Part shown: in pieces, positions 24,508 to 30,198 of the stretch | Position numbering within the stretch: position 1 is the first letter of the stretch | Layout: every line of letters begins with the position of its first letter | Assembly (NCBI GenBank): GCA_001443495.1 | Contig: LDXR01000005.1 | Span: 68,696-132,695 of the forward strand | DNA: 64,000 nt | Reading direction: 5' to 3' | Source: a candidate division NC10 bacterium CSP1-5 | GTDB lineage: Bacteria > Methylomirabilota > Methylomirabilia > Methylomirabilales > CSP1-5 | Notes under the pieces: model-generated | The model's input: only the letters and a program-made list of their open reading frames with translations | The model's database searches: none | What the model was told of the DNA's origin: nothing | Position numbers and translations under genes: made by a program

Positions 24508-25650
24508 TCACGAACGGCGGAGGCGCTCGGCCGCCTCGGAAAGCGCGCAGAGCTTCCGGAACGCGATGTCGACCGTCCCCACCGGCCGATCGGCGAAGGT
24601 GCCGAAGCCGCAGTCGGGGTTGAGGAAGATGCGCTCGGGACCCACCACCTGCGCCACCCGCCGGACTCGCGCAACGATCTCCTCCGGCGCTTCCACCTCG
24701 GATGTCCTGGGGTTCACAGCCCCGAACCCGACCTGGGCCCCCGGAGGCAGGCCCCGGAGCGCCTCGGGTGAGCCGGCCCGTGGCGTGGCGTACTCCAGGA
24801 CGAACTGGTGGATCTTCATCCGGCCGAAGTAAGAGATCAGCGGATCATACGGGCCCTCCAGGAGGATGTCCTCCTTCTGGCTCCAGTTGCCCCGGCAGAC
24901 GTGGACCGCCAGGACGGGGCCTTCGATGCCCTCCACGACCCGATTGATGAGGTCCACGGCGAAATCGAGCTCCTTTTCGGGGCTCGCGCTGGCCGCTAGA
25001 GCCGCGCACATGAAGGTCCGCGTCGCAGATTTGCCGGCGAAGACCAGCTCCGTCAGCACTGGCTCATCGAACTGGACGATGTCGGCTCCCGCCGCCGCCA
25101 GGCCGCGAAGCTCTGATCGGAGGATCGCCACGATGTCATCCGCCAGGGCCTCCCGCGTCGGATAGGCGTCTTCCGAAAGGCCCTTGACCCAGGTCGAGCG
25201 GCTCAAGAGGTACGGACCGGGCAGGGTCACCTTCACCGGCTTGCGCGTGTGCGCGCGGAGGAACTTGAGGTCATTGGCCACCAGAGGCTCGCGCGGCCGG
25301 AGCTTCCCGACGACGGTCGGGTTCTTGATGGCGAAGGCCGGCACATCCAGGGCGTTGAGCAGCGCTTCGAAGCCCGCCTTGTCCTCGACGTACTCGAGGA
25401 GTTCCGCCATCGACATCAGCCGGATCCCCTCCAGGCGGTCGCAGATGAACGAGTAGAAGTTGTCGCGGCGTTGCTCGCCGTCCGACACGATGTCGACGCC
25501 GGCGTCCTCCTGGTACTTGATCGCCAGGAGCGTGGCCTCGTCCTGGAGCGCCGGGAGGTCGGCCCGCTTCTTCTTCATCGCCTCGAGGAGCCACGACGGG
25601 CGGGGCCAGCTCCCGACGACCGTGACCGGGTAGAGGGGCCAGCGACTCAT
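24508..25650 (-). CDS. MetE-C-like cobalamin-independent methyltransferase
   Basis: A 380-residue TIM barrel matching the catalytic C-terminal half of cobalamin-independent methionine synthase. It shows TVVGSWPRPSWL, EQRRDNFYSF, the zinc ligands in VHVCRGNW and NPDCGFG, and the FDEPVLTEL substrate segment. The N-terminal MetE half is missing, as in archaeal MetE-core and many uncharacterised homologs, so the methyl donor may be a protein or a B12 compound rather than a folate (inference). It begins 4 bp after the TusA-OsmC gene and ends the sulfur-carrier operon. Confidence 0.87.
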   Translation of the reverse strand: MSRWPLYPVTVVGSWPRPSWLLEAMKKKRADLPALQDEATLLAIKYQEDAGVDIVSDGEQRRDNFYSFICDRLEGIRLMSMAELLEYVEDKAGFEALLNALDVPAFAIKNPTVVGKLRPREPLVANDLKFLRAHTRKPVKVTLPGPYLLSRSTWVKGLSEDAYPTREALADDIVAILRSELRGLAAAGADIVQFDEPVLTELVFAGKSATRTFMCAALAASASPEKELDFAVDLINRVVEGIEGPVLAVHVCRGNWSQKEDILLEGPYDPLISYFGRMKIHQFVLEYATPRAGSPEALRGLPPGAQVGFGAVNPRTSEVEAPEEIVARVRRVAQVVGPERIFLNPDCGFGTFADRPVGTVDIAFRKLCALSEAAERLRRS

Positions 25651-25654
25651 GGCA

Positions 25655-26386
25655 TCACACTCTCTTCAGCGGGACGTGAATCGGAACCTGCCGGACGAGG
25701 GACTGGGTAACGGGGGAGCGGACCAGCGTCTCTTCCCACAGGGCCTCGAGCACTTCGTCGTCCGCCTCGGCCTCGACGTACAGCGACCCTTCGACAGCCC
25801 GCAGGCCGGGATGTCCCTTCTGCTCGATGCCCAGGAAGACCAGGATGTTGTCGGCCTGGGCTTTCAGGGAGATCTCGAGGTTCCGGATGTCGATCCCTCG
25901 CTGTGACGCCCGCCACTGGAATCCCACGACGAGGCAGCCGCCGAGGGCCGCCAGCAGGTACTCTACGGCACTCGGGGCCGGATCCTGGGTCTCGAAGCTC
26001 GCGGGCTGCCCCACGGCGAAAGAGTGATTCCGGATGAACGCCCTCGCCTGCATCTCCCCCGTCCATCGGACGCGGGTTATCCAGGCGAAAGACCGTGCCC
26101 GCTCGAGATCGGCGCGGAGCGCGTCGTCCGCGCCCTTCTTCTGAACGAAGTACCGGATGACTCTCCCTTCGGCCGGCGCCGTCGCGAGGAGCGTGTGCCC
26201 CACCAGGCGGCACCAGGCCGGGAGATCTTCCTTGACGCTGACCTCCCGGCTCCGCAACTCAAGCACTCCTCCCGCCGGAAGGGGCTGCATCGCGTTCCGG
26301 ATGATCAGGAGCAGGCCACTCCCGCAGTCGAGATCGCCGCCGTCGCACACCGTATCGGCGACAGGCAATGGAGCTTCGCCACCCAT
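25655..26386 (-). CDS. TusA-like / OsmC-like fusion protein
   Basis: A 243-residue cytoplasmic protein. Residues about 10-85 are a TusA-type sulfur carrier fold with the Cys in LDCGSGLLLIIRNAM (CG in place of the usual CP-x-P) and DLPAWCRLVGHTLL. Residues about 100-240 are an OsmC/YhfA-like fold with QDPAPSAVEYLLAALGGCL and RGIDIRNLEISLKA. Only one of the two redox Cys of classic OsmC is seen (the second position reads SPVTQSLVR), so peroxidase activity is unlikely. A persulfide- or acyl-binding role is possible. It sits 21 bp after dsrE. Confidence 0.85.
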   Translation of the reverse strand: MGGEAPLPVADTVCDGGDLDCGSGLLLIIRNAMQPLPAGGVLELRSREVSVKEDLPAWCRLVGHTLLATAPAEGRVIRYFVQKKGADDALRADLERARSFAWITRVRWTGEMQARAFIRNHSFAVGQPASFETQDPAPSAVEYLLAALGGCLVVGFQWRASQRGIDIRNLEISLKAQADNILVFLGIEQKGHPGLRAVEGSLYVEAEADDEVLEALWEETLVRSPVTQSLVRQVPIHVPLKRV

Positions 26387-26407
26387 GCCTCAGCCCTACA
26401 AACCCCC

Positions 26408-26770
26408 TCAGTAGGTGACGGCGGGACTGTGCTCTCCCAGGAACTCGACCAGCTTCGCCCCTCCGACGATCACCGCGCCGTCGATGAGCCTTCCCTCGTC
26501 AAGCTTCCGCCGCTTGAAGCAGGGGGAGCAGACGTACACCTGGCCCCCAGCCTTGACGAAGTTCGACATCAGCTCCCTGAGCGGGGCGAACCCCTCCTCG
26601 TGAATATCGTCGGCATAGCCCTTCTGGCAGAGGCGCACGCCCTCGGTGCTCAGGAATACCATCGTCTGTTTCTCGGACGCCACCGCGGCATTGGCCACGA
26701 CGAAGGCGACGGTCGCCTTGTCAGGATTGTCTTTGGCAGAGGTGAGACTGACACAGAACTTGCCCCCCAC
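26408..26770 (-). CDS. DsrE-family sulfur-relay protein
   Basis: A 120-residue DsrE/F-like fold: TVAFVVANAAVASEKQTMVFLSTEGVRL, then GGQVYVCSPCFKRRKL with the candidate active Cys pair and KLVEFLGEHSPAVTY. Family members accept persulfide sulfur and pass it between TusA-type partners, and both neighbours are TusA fusions. Start is GTG 26770 with AAGGAGGG seven bases upstream, 3 bp after the previous stop. Readthrough of the final TGA gives only GGGL before another stop, so it is a true stop. Confidence 0.9.
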   Translation of the reverse strand: MGGKFCVSLTSAKDNPDKATVAFVVANAAVASEKQTMVFLSTEGVRLCQKGYADDIHEEGFAPLRELMSNFVKAGGQVYVCSPCFKRRKLDEGRLIDGAVIVGGAKLVEFLGEHSPAVTY

Positions 26771-26773
26771 GTT

Positions 26774-27382
26774 CTATCCCTCCTTTCGTCGAATCCAGTA
26801 CTCGGGATGCTCCCACAGAAGAAGCGTGTGCCCCGTCAGGCGGCACCACGCCGGCAGATCCTCGGGAGCGCCCGGATCGTGCGCCGTAACCCGCAACACT
26901 TCCCCCGGCCCCATGGAGTGCAGGCGAATCCGCAGTTCGAGCACTAGGTCGCCGCACGCCATCTGTCCGGCGTCCCACTTCGCGTCTGTGCGGGGTGCGC
27001 CAGCCGTGCCGGAAGCGGGGTGGCGGGCCGCATCCAAGGCCCCCTTCCTCTCCTCCCCCGACGCCCACAGGCACCCAGGGGAGGAAACAGTGCCGAAGCC
27101 CTCCTGGCGACCGGCCCAGTCCCATCCCGCCCGAAAGCACTCGTGGTGATCGATATACGCGAACACATGGTCCCTGAGTTCCCCTCGATCCTGTGCCAGA
27201 GCGCCGGCCAGGCATGACAGACATCGCGGGGCATCCTTGAAGCCCATCGCAAGGCTCATCACGGCCTCGTGGCCGCACACGCCTCGCGCGCACGAGGGGC
27301 ACCCGGCTCCCTGCGTCTCTTCCAGAAAGCGCAGGACCGTCTCCGTGCGGACTGACTCGTCGGGTGCCGGCGCACCAGTCAT
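26774..27382 (-). CDS. Cys-rich domain fused to TusA-like sulfur carrier
   Basis: A 202-residue protein. The N-terminal 80 residues are Cys/His-rich (CPSCARGVCGHE, APRCLSCLAGAL, HHECFRAGWDWAG) and may bind a metal. The C-terminal 75 residues are TusA-like, with the Cys in AGQMACGDLVLELRIRL and the line DLPAWCRLTGHTLLLWE shared with the TusA-OsmC protein. I start at ATG 27382, since the track's 27439 start runs into the upstream gene. A sulfur or selenium carrier role is inferred. Confidence 0.82.
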   Translation of the reverse strand: MTGAPAPDESVRTETVLRFLEETQGAGCPSCARGVCGHEAVMSLAMGFKDAPRCLSCLAGALAQDRGELRDHVFAYIDHHECFRAGWDWAGRQEGFGTVSSPGCLWASGEERKGALDAARHPASGTAGAPRTDAKWDAGQMACGDLVLELRIRLHSMGPGEVLRVTAHDPGAPEDLPAWCRLTGHTLLLWEHPEYWIRRKEG

Positions 27383-27405
27383 GATCGAAGGGCCTCTGGA
27401 CCCTC

Positions 27406-28533
27406 TTACAGCTCCCGGTAGGTGAGCTTCCGGACCCATCCGGTCTTTTCGGGATGCTCCTTCCCGTCAACCTCCACGTAGGCCTTGGGGAGGGCGTTGA
27501 CGGGCTCGCCGTCCTGCTTGGGGCTCATGATGAGGTCCCGATTCCTGGACCAGACCACCCGGCGTTCATCGAGATTCCCAAAGTAGTAGTTGACCCGGGC
27601 CGGATCGGGGCCGAAGGTGCCGTCGGCCGTCGTCAGGCGGACGAGCCTTTCGTTGTCTGCATTCACCGGGTAGTCGCCCGCGTACAAATCGGCCACGGAC
27701 ACGTCGTGGGGAATCCAGCCGATGCCGGGGGCATAGAACTCCGCCCAGCAATGGTAGCTCTGATCCTGGTCCTGGCCCCGGAGCTCGGGCTTGAGGAAGG
27801 AGCCGTACACGATCTGGGTCGGGATCCCCTTGGCCCGGGCCAGAGAGGTCCAGAGGGATTCGAAGTCGGTGCAGTTGCCGGTGCGGAAGGTCAGGCAATA
27901 GCTCGTGCTGCCGACCGGCGACGCCTTTTTGTTCTTGGGGTCCTTCACCCAGTACTCCACGTATTCCAGGGTCCAGTCGTAGAGCTTGCGGGCCGCCCGG
28001 ACCGGATTGGTCTCGTTCCCCACGATCTGGTCTGCAAGCTTGCGGATCTGGTCGTCGATCTCGACGTGCTTGTTCGGTTGCAGATACTTGGCGAAGCGCG
28101 CGCGGTCGGCGTCCGTGATCGCCTTTGCCTTGGCCGGGTCCACACTCACCCGGACCTCCGAGCGCTTCACGACGAAGCTGGTCAGCACCTTGAATTCCTT
28201 CTGCTTTGGGTTCTGGGCTTCGAGGTACAGGACCCTGCTCCCTTCGGAATCGCGCTCGATGCGATGGGCATACGGCGCCTCCACGCGGAAGCTACTCACG
28301 TGCTGCGCGGGATCGTTTTCCTGGGGAAGGGCAAACCAGACGCGCACCCTCTTGGCCCCTTCTGGAACATTGACTGTGAGTTCATTCCGCAACTCAAAGG
28401 TCGCCTGTTTGATGCCCGGCGATCCTTCCTTCGCGGCAAAGGCGCCGGGGAAGAGCGAGGCGATTCCAAGGGCGAGAACCGTCATGATGCTGAAGATCAA
28501 GAGGACTCGAGACTGGAAGTTCCGCGCATCCAT
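27406..28533 (-). CDS. exported transglutaminase-like protein
   Basis: A 375-residue protein with an N-terminal signal/anchor (VLLIFSIMTVLALGIASLFPGAFA). After a beta-rich domain (about 35-165) comes a transglutaminase-like core with the triad Cys in TGNCTDFESLWTSLARAKGIP, His in QSYHCWAEFY and Asp in WIPHDVSVADLYAG. Such proteins are mostly periplasmic peptidases or amidases. ATG 28533 has AAGGAGG seven bases upstream, better than ATG 28539, which abuts it. It heads the TusA/DsrE run, with a 23 bp gap. Confidence 0.9.
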   Translation of the reverse strand: MDARNFQSRVLLIFSIMTVLALGIASLFPGAFAAKEGSPGIKQATFELRNELTVNVPEGAKRVRVWFALPQENDPAQHVSSFRVEAPYAHRIERDSEGSRVLYLEAQNPKQKEFKVLTSFVVKRSEVRVSVDPAKAKAITDADRARFAKYLQPNKHVEIDDQIRKLADQIVGNETNPVRAARKLYDWTLEYVEYWVKDPKNKKASPVGSTSYCLTFRTGNCTDFESLWTSLARAKGIPTQIVYGSFLKPELRGQDQDQSYHCWAEFYAPGIGWIPHDVSVADLYAGDYPVNADNERLVRLTTADGTFGPDPARVNYYFGNLDERRVVWSRNRDLIMSPKQDGEPVNALPKAYVEVDGKEHPEKTGWVRKLTYREL

Positions 28534-28788: not shown

Positions 28789-30198
28789 TCAGAAAGGAGC
28801 CACCTGCTCCTCGGTGGGCTCTGCTCAGCAGTACCATGGTTCGGTGAGGTAGGGAATCGTGGCCCGCGCCCGTGCCTCGACGGGCGGCGGGAGGGGACGT
28901 GGGGAGCCCGCGGCGGCCTGCTCGGCCAGTAACCACACCTGCGCAAAGATCTCGCGCCGACTTTCGCCGCGCGCCGTCGCCGCCCGGACGAGCGCCTGAA
29001 TCTCCCCCTGCAACTGGTCCACGCGGGGATCCGAGTGCCGCCACGGATAGACCAGGGCGGTCTCGTCAAACGGCCCCACGATCTCTTGAACTTCGGCGAG
29101 CTCCAGGAGCTTCGAGCCGGCCGGGATCAACAGGCGAATTGCGAGCTGAATAGGGGCAACGTGGTCGATGAGGTCAAGCTCTGCCAACAGCGAGAGCAGT
29201 TCCTGGTAGCCCTCGATCGAGATCCAGTGGGTAAACGCGACGAAGGTCGGATGGAGGGTAAGCCCCGCCTCACGGCAGAGACGGACGACCCGGAGAAAAT
29301 CATCGCGGGTATGGCCTTTGTTCAACCGCTCAAGGACGCGGTCATCGATCGACTCCACCGCACTGGTGACAAAGAGACACCCGGTCTCTTTCAGGGTGGT
29401 GAGATGCTCCGCATGTTTCAGGAGATGCTCGATCTTGATGGTCACATCATACGTCAGGTGTGGGTGTTCCGTACGAAGGGTCCGGACGAGGGCCAGGGCG
29501 TGACCGATCCCATTGAAGAAGTCGGGGTCGCCAAAGGTGATATGCTCCGCGCCCGCCGCCACCTGCCGCTTGATGTCTTCCAGGACCACATCCCGCTGGA
29601 CGATGCGGAATTGCCCCTGATAGACCGGGACCACCGGGCAGTGGCGGCATAGATGTTTGCAGCCGCGACTGGCCTCGGTATATCCCACGGTTCGACTCCG
29701 CCCATCGCCGACTTCGAGCTGCGCATACTTCGATAGCGCCGCGAGGCCGTTTCGGTCCGGGACCAAGAATCGCTGCTTGGCCAGCGAGACGACCGGCTCT
29801 CTTTGGAAGACCTTCTTTGCACCCGCCGGCGCAGCGCGAAGTCGCTCAATGACGCTCCCGAGCCCCGCTTCGAACTCCCCCCCCAGGACCGTGTTCGCCC
29901 CGAGCCTGCGTAACAGGGGCTCATTCATCGAGGCATAGAGCCCGTAAAAACAGAGATGCGCATCCGGATTCAGCACCTTGACCCGCTCGGCGACCCGCGT
30001 GGCGATCCTCGTCGCCGTGTGCATCGGTAGATAGAACGCCACGACCTGGGCGGCGCGAACTGCCTCCTCGTCGAGAGGCTCCACGGCGAGGTCGAGACAG
30101 GTGACGCGGGCACCCGCCTTGCGAAGCCAGGCTGCCGGGGAGGCCAGCCCGAAGGGCTGCCGGCCCAATTCATACGTGGAGATCAGTACGACCTGCAC
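28789..30198 (-). CDS. B12-binding radical SAM selenoprotein, CUAEP tail (TGA = Sec)
   Basis: A 469-residue protein with selenocysteine at codon 458 (TGA 28827-28825). The track stops at this TGA, but the frame continues WYC-U-AEPTEEQVAPF to a second TGA at 28789. This is the C-terminal CUAEP tail I know from CUAEP/CCAEP-tail radical SAM (seleno)proteins. Residues about 1-150 are a B12-binding-like domain (VVLISTYELGRQPFGLASPAAWL). The radical SAM core has SRGCKHLCRHC (C-x3-C-x2-C) and FGDPDFFNGIGHAL. Start is GTG 30198, since the track's 89 extra residues are low-complexity. A hairpin directly after the TGA fits a bacterial SECIS. Function unknown; NfuA is adjacent. Confidence 0.9.
28797..28821 (-). 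promoter_or_regulatory. putative bacterial SECIS hairpin
   Basis: Immediately after the UGA, GAGCC-C-ACC pairs with GGUGGCUC (one bulged C) around the loop GAGGAGCA. The apical loop begins about 12 nt after the UGA, close to the spacing of known bSECIS elements. Coding continues through the element. Confidence 0.65.

Follow-up and report, generated by a model that had tools for sequence, protein, structure and literature searches.

A conserved operon of TusA, DsrE and OsmC modules and a MetE-like methyltransferase that is linked to selenium genes

Composition and conservation of the operon

What is carried, and to which acceptor, by TusA- and DsrE-type proteins whose genes are clustered with that of a methionine-synthase-like enzyme? 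This question is raised by five co-directional open reading frames on the minus strand (positions 24508-28533) of a 64,000 nucleotide stretch of contig LDXR01000005.1 of the candidate division NC10 bacterium CSP1-5, the whole of which is referred to as the window. In order of transcription, they encode a transglutaminase-like protein, a TusA protein (TusA1), a DsrE-family protein, a TusA module joined to an OsmC domain (TusA2-OsmC) and a MetE-like methyltransferase. Computed from the chosen start codons, the gaps between the genes are 23 bp (27406/27382), 3 bp (26774/26770), 21 bp (26408/26386) and 4 bp (25655/25650), which confirms the coordinates and the spacing of 3-23 bp given in a preliminary description of the locus. 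The results presented below show that this gene set is widely shared among bacteria but unnamed, and indicate that the TusA-bearing operon probably serves selenium metabolism.

Relatives were collected by a profile scan of genome contigs with a MetE alignment, and the best 80 of at least 522 MetE-like matches constitute the loci (labelled L) analysed here. The order TusA1-DsrE-(TusA2+OsmC)-MetE was complete on one strand in 57 of these 80 loci, which belong to several phyla. This recurrence is far beyond chance. The gene order is conserved, and the earlier proposal of a multi-carrier set tied to a MetE-like methyltransferase is borne out. The other 23 loci include cut contigs, OsmC-MetE pairs without TusA or DsrE nearby (archaea, Thermoflexus and other Chloroflexota, and Myxococcota), and sets in which a binding-protein gene accompanies OsmC and MetE (OsmC-SBP-MetE; L117 and L135).

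A second arrangement of the carriers was found in Methylomirabilota genomes G040, G041, G053, G067 and G043, the last of which ends at a contig edge. These encode TusA1 and DsrE followed by a fusion protein in which TusA2 leads directly into MetE. The same fusion is present in Paracoccus, for which tblastn of plasmid records returned three records; on P. ferrooxidans pFER4 the order is transglutaminase, SufS-like desulfurase, TusA, DsrE, two unknown proteins, TusA2-MetE fusion, SelA and TrxB. TusA2 is thus joined either to OsmC, with MetE encoded next to it, or to MetE itself, and this gene architecture makes it very likely that TusA2 and MetE act together and suggests TusA2 as the immediate partner of the enzyme. 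TusA2-OsmC matches, many of them weak or single-domain, were obtained in 35 of 95 Methylomirabilota genomes, and in one of these phylum members (G018) TusA-OsmC adjoins MetE. Six Methylomirabilota loci (L047-L049 and L051-L053) encode TusA1 and DsrE as a pair that has neither TusA2 nor MetE beside it.

The phylogeny of the MetE-like proteins was studied with a quick tree of 101 rows with SH-aLRT support only, from which sequences shorter than 250 aa and two copies (L070 and L088, of L036 and L037, respectively) were excluded; architecture labels were assigned by hand with 'A' as default, and the distant row L165 is wrongly labelled A. The TusA2-MetE fusions of Methylomirabilota, Planctomycetota and Paracoccus form one group (support 93). 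The window protein belongs to a group of 20 (support 99) together with Planctomycetota and Acidobacteriota, its nearest row being an Acidobacteria metagenome-assembled genome (MAG), and no MetE of this type was found at E 1e-60 in the six congeneric genomes. Based on this tree placement and the lack of the gene in close relatives, the operon most likely moves horizontally. The OsmC-SBP-MetE proteins group with a support of 9. This second MetE architecture consists of OsmC, a signal-less homologue of an Rv1680-type binding protein and MetE, and was observed in L117, L135, L158-L160, L162 and L154; L135 adds an Rv1679-type acyl-CoA-dehydrogenase-like protein and L117 adds SenA. Rv1679/Rv1680 of M. 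tuberculosis carry these two family names.

Cysteines are conserved in the carrier proteins encoded in the window. TusA1 (26774..27382, minus strand) scores 41.3 bits against PF01206 (cut-off 28.6) and its TusA module has Cys143 (in CGDL) and Cys180 (in PAWC), both of which are kept in 57/57 relatives. This module is preceded by a separate CxxC...H...CxxC domain, also present in 12 other loci, with cysteines at positions 28, 31, 54, 57 and 82. DsrE (26408..26770, minus strand, GTG start; PF02635, 53.0 bits) contains the pair Cys81-Ser-Pro-Cys84, a CxxC motif of which both cysteines are kept in 58/58 relatives. TusA2-OsmC (25655..26386, minus strand) has Cys14, Cys21 (in CGSG) and Cys59 (in PAWC), and equivalents of the latter two are kept in 60/60 relatives. 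The TusA2 module reaches only 25.1 bits against PF01206, below the cut-off; it was assigned as TusA because of its predicted fold and its structural matches. AlphaFold models (mean pLDDT 88.6 for the TusA1 protein and 89.9 for TusA2-OsmC) predict the beta-alpha-beta-alpha-beta-beta order of TusA for both modules, and Foldseek matched both to E. coli TusA (3lvj/3lvk) with best E values of 5.2e-5 and 2.2e-5. Thus, the two TusA-like domains have the same fold and are not unrelated. As noted before, the CPxP active-site motif is missing from both modules and CG stands in its place, the first cysteine being retained in all relatives (57/57 and 60/60, respectively).

The OsmC fold is supported by PF02566 (48.0 bits) and by Foldseek matches to Geobacter GSU2788 (2opl) and others. 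The domain has a single cysteine, Cys151, and a serine at the second peroxidase position. Among the relatives, the first peroxidase cysteine is present in 47/60 and missing in 13/60, and the second position is serine in 56/60. A peroxidase function was considered and discarded as unlikely because the catalytic cysteine pair has been lost. The preliminary description counted four sulfur-carrier-like proteins; four such modules do exist (two TusA, one DsrE and one OsmC), but only three proteins hold them.

The last gene (24508..25650, minus strand; PF01717 Meth_synt_2, 89.3 bits) encodes a MetE catalytic domain without the folate-binding N-terminal half. Alignment identified zinc ligands H250, C252, E286 and C347 and homocysteine residues S14, E59 and D195, equivalent to those of MetE and 3RPD as described in passages of PMC7857596. 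These residues are invariant in 78/78 relatives, and so is C215, a family-specific cysteine located in an insertion between the DEP and HxC motifs, a stretch that is ~20 residues longer than in 3RPD. The protein misses every NCBIfam methionine-synthase cut-off, the best score being 162.3 bits for NF003317 (cut-off 406).

Association with selenium genes

The gene neighbourhoods of the operon are more telling for its link with selenium than its co-occurrence with selD. In Siminovitchia fortis (L127) the operon adjoins selD, selA, tRNA-Sec, selB, YedE/FdhT (553.3 bits) and LysR_Sec_metab. In Methylomirabilota G018 (L036), TusA-OsmC and MetE are accompanied by SelD and by a binding protein that matches TIGR04553, 'putative selenate ABC transporter', with 326.1 bits (cut-off 250), after which come transporter-like ORFs. 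The Paracoccus TusA2-MetE fusion gene (L034) is directly followed by SelA (564.8 bits), and in L117 SenA (523 bits, cut-off 420) and a partial SenB follow MetE. Moreover, a divergent LysR gene of the LysR_Sec_metab family was found beside the operon in 10/10 Bacillaceae loci scanned.

Co-occurrence points in the same direction. Of 50 carrier genomes drawn from the 80 loci, 44 have a SelD that scores above the cut-off, compared with 2 of 14 controls. Carriers in larger cohorts were defined by MetE scan thresholds of 1e-60 (Methylomirabilota), 1e-100 (Bacillales) and 1e-90 (Planctomycetota), with remote copies uncounted. The Bacillales and Planctomycetota cohorts are samples that consist in part of genomes reached through the operon itself. 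For Bacillales, selD was present in 9/9 carriers versus 131/240 others (p=0.005) and for Planctomycetota in 33/37 carriers versus 131/209 others (p=0.0008; Fisher tests that ignore phylogeny); the values became p=0.016 and p=0.006, respectively, when genomes reached via the operon were excluded. The Methylomirabilota are uninformative as a test, with selD being near-universal (92/95). Together, the selenium-gene neighbourhoods, the regulator and the co-occurrence of SelD give good support to the suspected link of the operon with selenium. Among Bacillales genomes with two SelD genes, 3/5 carry this MetE (G247, G302 and G346) versus 6/244 of the others; by coordinates the second SelD does not adjoin MetE.

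A proposed route for selenium and competing readings

How could carriers and a methyltransferase act together on selenium? We tentatively propose that the operon scavenges selenium, recovering it from methylated selenium by demethylation onto homocysteine, the donor and the direction of the reaction being those that we infer. Methylated selenium (methylselenol and relatives) would be captured on TusA2 as a methylselenenyl sulfide. Homocysteine on the zinc of the MetE-like enzyme would then take the methyl group and become methionine, while TusA2 would be left with a perselenide; for this step the zinc and homocysteine sites are seen in the protein sequence. The selenium would next move by thiol exchange from TusA2 to DsrE and on to TusA1, a presumed order for carriers whose cysteines are invariant, and would finally reach SelD in the form of selenide, to be used in the synthesis of selenocysteine, as the gene linkage suggests. 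The OsmC domain, with its peroxidase pair lost, would serve for binding or as a scaffold, and the exported transglutaminase would be accessory. The detailed chemistry, a MetE-type zinc enzyme that moves the methyl group of TusA2-S-Se-CH3 to homocysteine while DsrE and TusA1 relay the perselenide to SelD, with a protein-bound methyl donor and free of corrinoids, is the more doubtful part of this proposal.

Several observations weigh against the proposal. The thiolate may attack selenium instead of the methyl carbon of the methylselenenyl sulfide. LysR aside, only 3 of the 80 loci have a known selenium gene within the flanking sequence that was retrieved, and the co-occurrence statistics ignore phylogeny. 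Six of the 50 carriers, three MAGs and three archaea, lack SelD, and the archaeal branch consists of OsmC and MetE without TusA, DsrE or SelD nearby; the MetE-like family is therefore not strictly bound to selenium. Conversely, selD occurs without this MetE in the six congeneric genomes, and the enzyme is therefore not needed for selenium use. Finally, four carriers have no other methionine synthase detectable with three models (MesA-MesD were not searched for), and in these the MetE-like enzyme may make bulk methionine.

Two other readings differ from demethylation and selenium recovery only in direction or element. According to one of them, which we consider unlikely, the relay takes selenium from a desulfurase or rhodanese to SelD and the MetE-like enzyme methylates whatever selenium is in surplus, as selenide or selenohomocysteine, thereby detoxifying or storing it. 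The same selenium linkage would be explained, and a source of this kind is encoded beside the Paracoccus operon (the SufS-like desulfurase) and beside L120 (a 3-mercaptopyruvate sulfurtransferase-like rhodanese). However, the operon has no gene for a methyl donor (corrinoid or S-adenosylmethionine, SAM), and the selenium-utilisation regulator of the Bacillaceae and the importer-type binding protein of G018 fit acquisition better.

The other reading, to which we give an equally low probability, is salvage of methyl-sulfur, whereby methanethiol or another methylthio donor would be converted into methionine and persulfide sulfur, and the selenium link would be secondary, via shared carriers. In favour of sulfur are the sulfur-type carriers and MetE chemistry, the archaeal and OsmC-SBP-MetE branches, the lack of SelD in three archaeal carriers, and the Rv1679-type protein of L135, which in addition matches SfnB with a sub-threshold score of 108.9 bits. 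What this reading does not account for is the enrichment of SelD and the clustering with selD, selA, selB, yedE, senA and the selenium-family LysR.

The distribution of methionine synthases bears on a third possibility. A MetH reactivation domain is encoded in 27 of 42 carrier genomes; among the remaining 15, PF02574 was found in seven, a MetE N-domain in nine and neither in four (three Brocadia and Ammoniphilus). A role of the MetE-like protein as sole methionine synthase is thus not general, most carriers having other candidates. That it is one more core methionine synthase and makes bulk methionine, with the carriers supplying homocysteine sulfur and without a special role in selenium, agrees with the full set of catalytic and homocysteine residues and with those four genomes, but is the least probable reading, given the 27 MetH carriers, the absence of a homoserine-activating or sulfhydrylase gene (Pfam) among the five genes, the selenium linkage, which it leaves unexplained, and the absence of the MetE-like protein from most relatives, which marks it as accessory.

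Neighbouring genes, known systems and significance

The first gene of the run (27406..28533, minus strand) encodes a transglutaminase-like protein (PF01841 Transglut_core, 79.9 bits) that is predicted to be exported, a hydrophobic N-terminal segment being read by eye as a signal peptide; AGGAGG is located 7 bp 5' of its ATG at 28533. A transglutaminase gene is located directly upstream of TusA1 in 12 of the 80 loci, and also occurs in Paracoccus and further loci. It is hence a frequent but lineage-limited partner.

About 250 bp upstream of the five genes, on the same strand, lies a gene for a CUAEP-tail radical SAM selenoprotein (28789..30192, the 5' end not being a fixed start; NF040546, 632.5 bits, cut-off 500) whose TGA at 28825-28827 is read as selenocysteine. 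A hairpin directly after this TGA (28789-28827), a possible selenocysteine insertion sequence, does not exceed its shuffles in stability (z 0.10). The preliminary description envisaged the radical SAM enzyme as a recipient of the relay. As a general feature this was rejected, since none of the 80 loci has a relative of the CUAEP radical SAM gene beside the operon; the neighbour is local and its membership in the system doubtful.

Other neighbours recur elsewhere. Two proteins that belong to no family in Pfam, NCBIfam or PDB, one of 168 aa and membrane-type, the other of 522 aa and exported-looking, are encoded with the operon in Paracoccus, Nitrospinota and Gallionella (L034:5787-7871; L085:11220 and 11755; L094:11047 and 13713; L099:3081 and 6629), and a search for solved structural relatives of the Paracoccus 522-aa protein returned none. 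Possibly these proteins are the uptake side. Rhodanese-type genes adjoin OsmC-MetE or TusA-DsrE-OsmC-MetE sets in L109, L123 and L120 and are a possible entry point of sulfur or selenium.

A literature search returned no paper on the TusA/DsrE/OsmC/MetE/selenium gene set, most subscription papers being outside this search, so that this is no proof of absence. The operon is also unmentioned in passages of the selenium papers on YedE, YedF, DUF3343, LysR_Se or DsrE-/OsmC-like selenoproteins. The closest functional parallels, as far as passages of the sources describe them, are two corrinoid systems. In Methanococcus, selenium depletion raises transcripts of TusA/TusD together with those of the SdmABC methyl-selenide methyltransfer system (PMC11097638). 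According to parts of a preprint on type I mlp gene clusters (MGC), Mlp2 performs methylcobalamin:selenide methyl transfer, selenocysteine machinery is present in 87% of MGC species versus 21.5% of bacteria, and recycling of the methyl group into methionine is proposed for methyl-selenide salvage (PMC10418091). The operon resembles these systems, as they appear in those passages, in the linkage of genes for a zinc-type methyltransferase to selenium (SelABCD) genes and in a methyl group that is proposed to reach methionine; with Sdm it further shares TusA/TusD-type carriers tied to selenium, in Methanococcus through a co-response to its depletion. It differs in having a MetE-family enzyme instead of a UroD-family Mlp, and in having its own TusA1/DsrE/TusA2 set fused to or clustered with the enzyme, while the five window genes include no corrinoid protein or activase. 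Presumably it also differs in its hosts, whose lineages include aerobes such as Neobacillus and Paracoccus. Corrinoid-free recovery of selenium was proposed because the operon shares a methyltransferase, TusA/DsrE carriers and selenium genes with Sdm/MGC but has no corrinoid gene. If the proposal is right, the operon works like Sdm/MGC without being a member, having neither corrinoid protein nor Mlp. By analogy with a sulfur version that passages of PMC10418091 propose for a non-selenium MGC clade, the TusA2-less branches (archaea and OsmC-SBP-MetE) may be a sulfur version of the operon.

The enzyme itself is similar to the core methionine synthases MesA-MesD, described in passages of PMC7857596, in being a MetE catalytic domain without folate domain and with the same zinc and homocysteine residues. 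It is distinguished from them by scores below the NCBIfam cut-offs, the insertion with an invariant cysteine, TusA/DsrE/OsmC partners and the absence of MesX. TusA/DsrE sulfur relays comprise TusABCDE and the DsrE-TusA relays of sulfur oxidisers, with MnmA, DsrC and sHdr as partners. The operon has the same TusA and DsrE folds with invariant cysteines, but CG replaces CPxP and the partner is a methyltransferase. In parts of PMC5322559, the SirA/TusA and DsrE modules of YedF/YedE are likewise tied to SelD genomes, and YedE and LysR_Se are near the operon in L127. YedF, however, is a single CPxP TusA-DsrE fusion, whereas in the operon TusA and DsrE are separate genes, TusA is duplicated, OsmC and MetE are added and CPxP is absent.

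At stake is the way in which bacteria obtain selenium, a trace element, and convey it to SelD in the presence of a large excess of sulfur; according to parts of a review, no high-affinity transport system for selenium has yet been identified (PMC9312934). With a conserved, horizontally spread operon that combines carriers with a zinc methyltransferase, and in part of the genomes also with SelD and a transporter of the selenate type, this question becomes testable in culturable Bacillaceae and Paracoccus. The operon also offers a candidate function for hundreds of genes (at least 522 relatives) whose annotation goes no further than methionine synthase, TusA or OsmC. If the proposed route is true, the operon would constitute a relay dedicated to selenium and equipped with a demethylase of its own, and its MetE-like enzyme would be a methionine synthase that draws on a methylchalcogenide bound to a carrier protein. 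A single corrinoid-free step would then accomplish what is ascribed to the corrinoid methyltransferases of Sdm and type I MGC.

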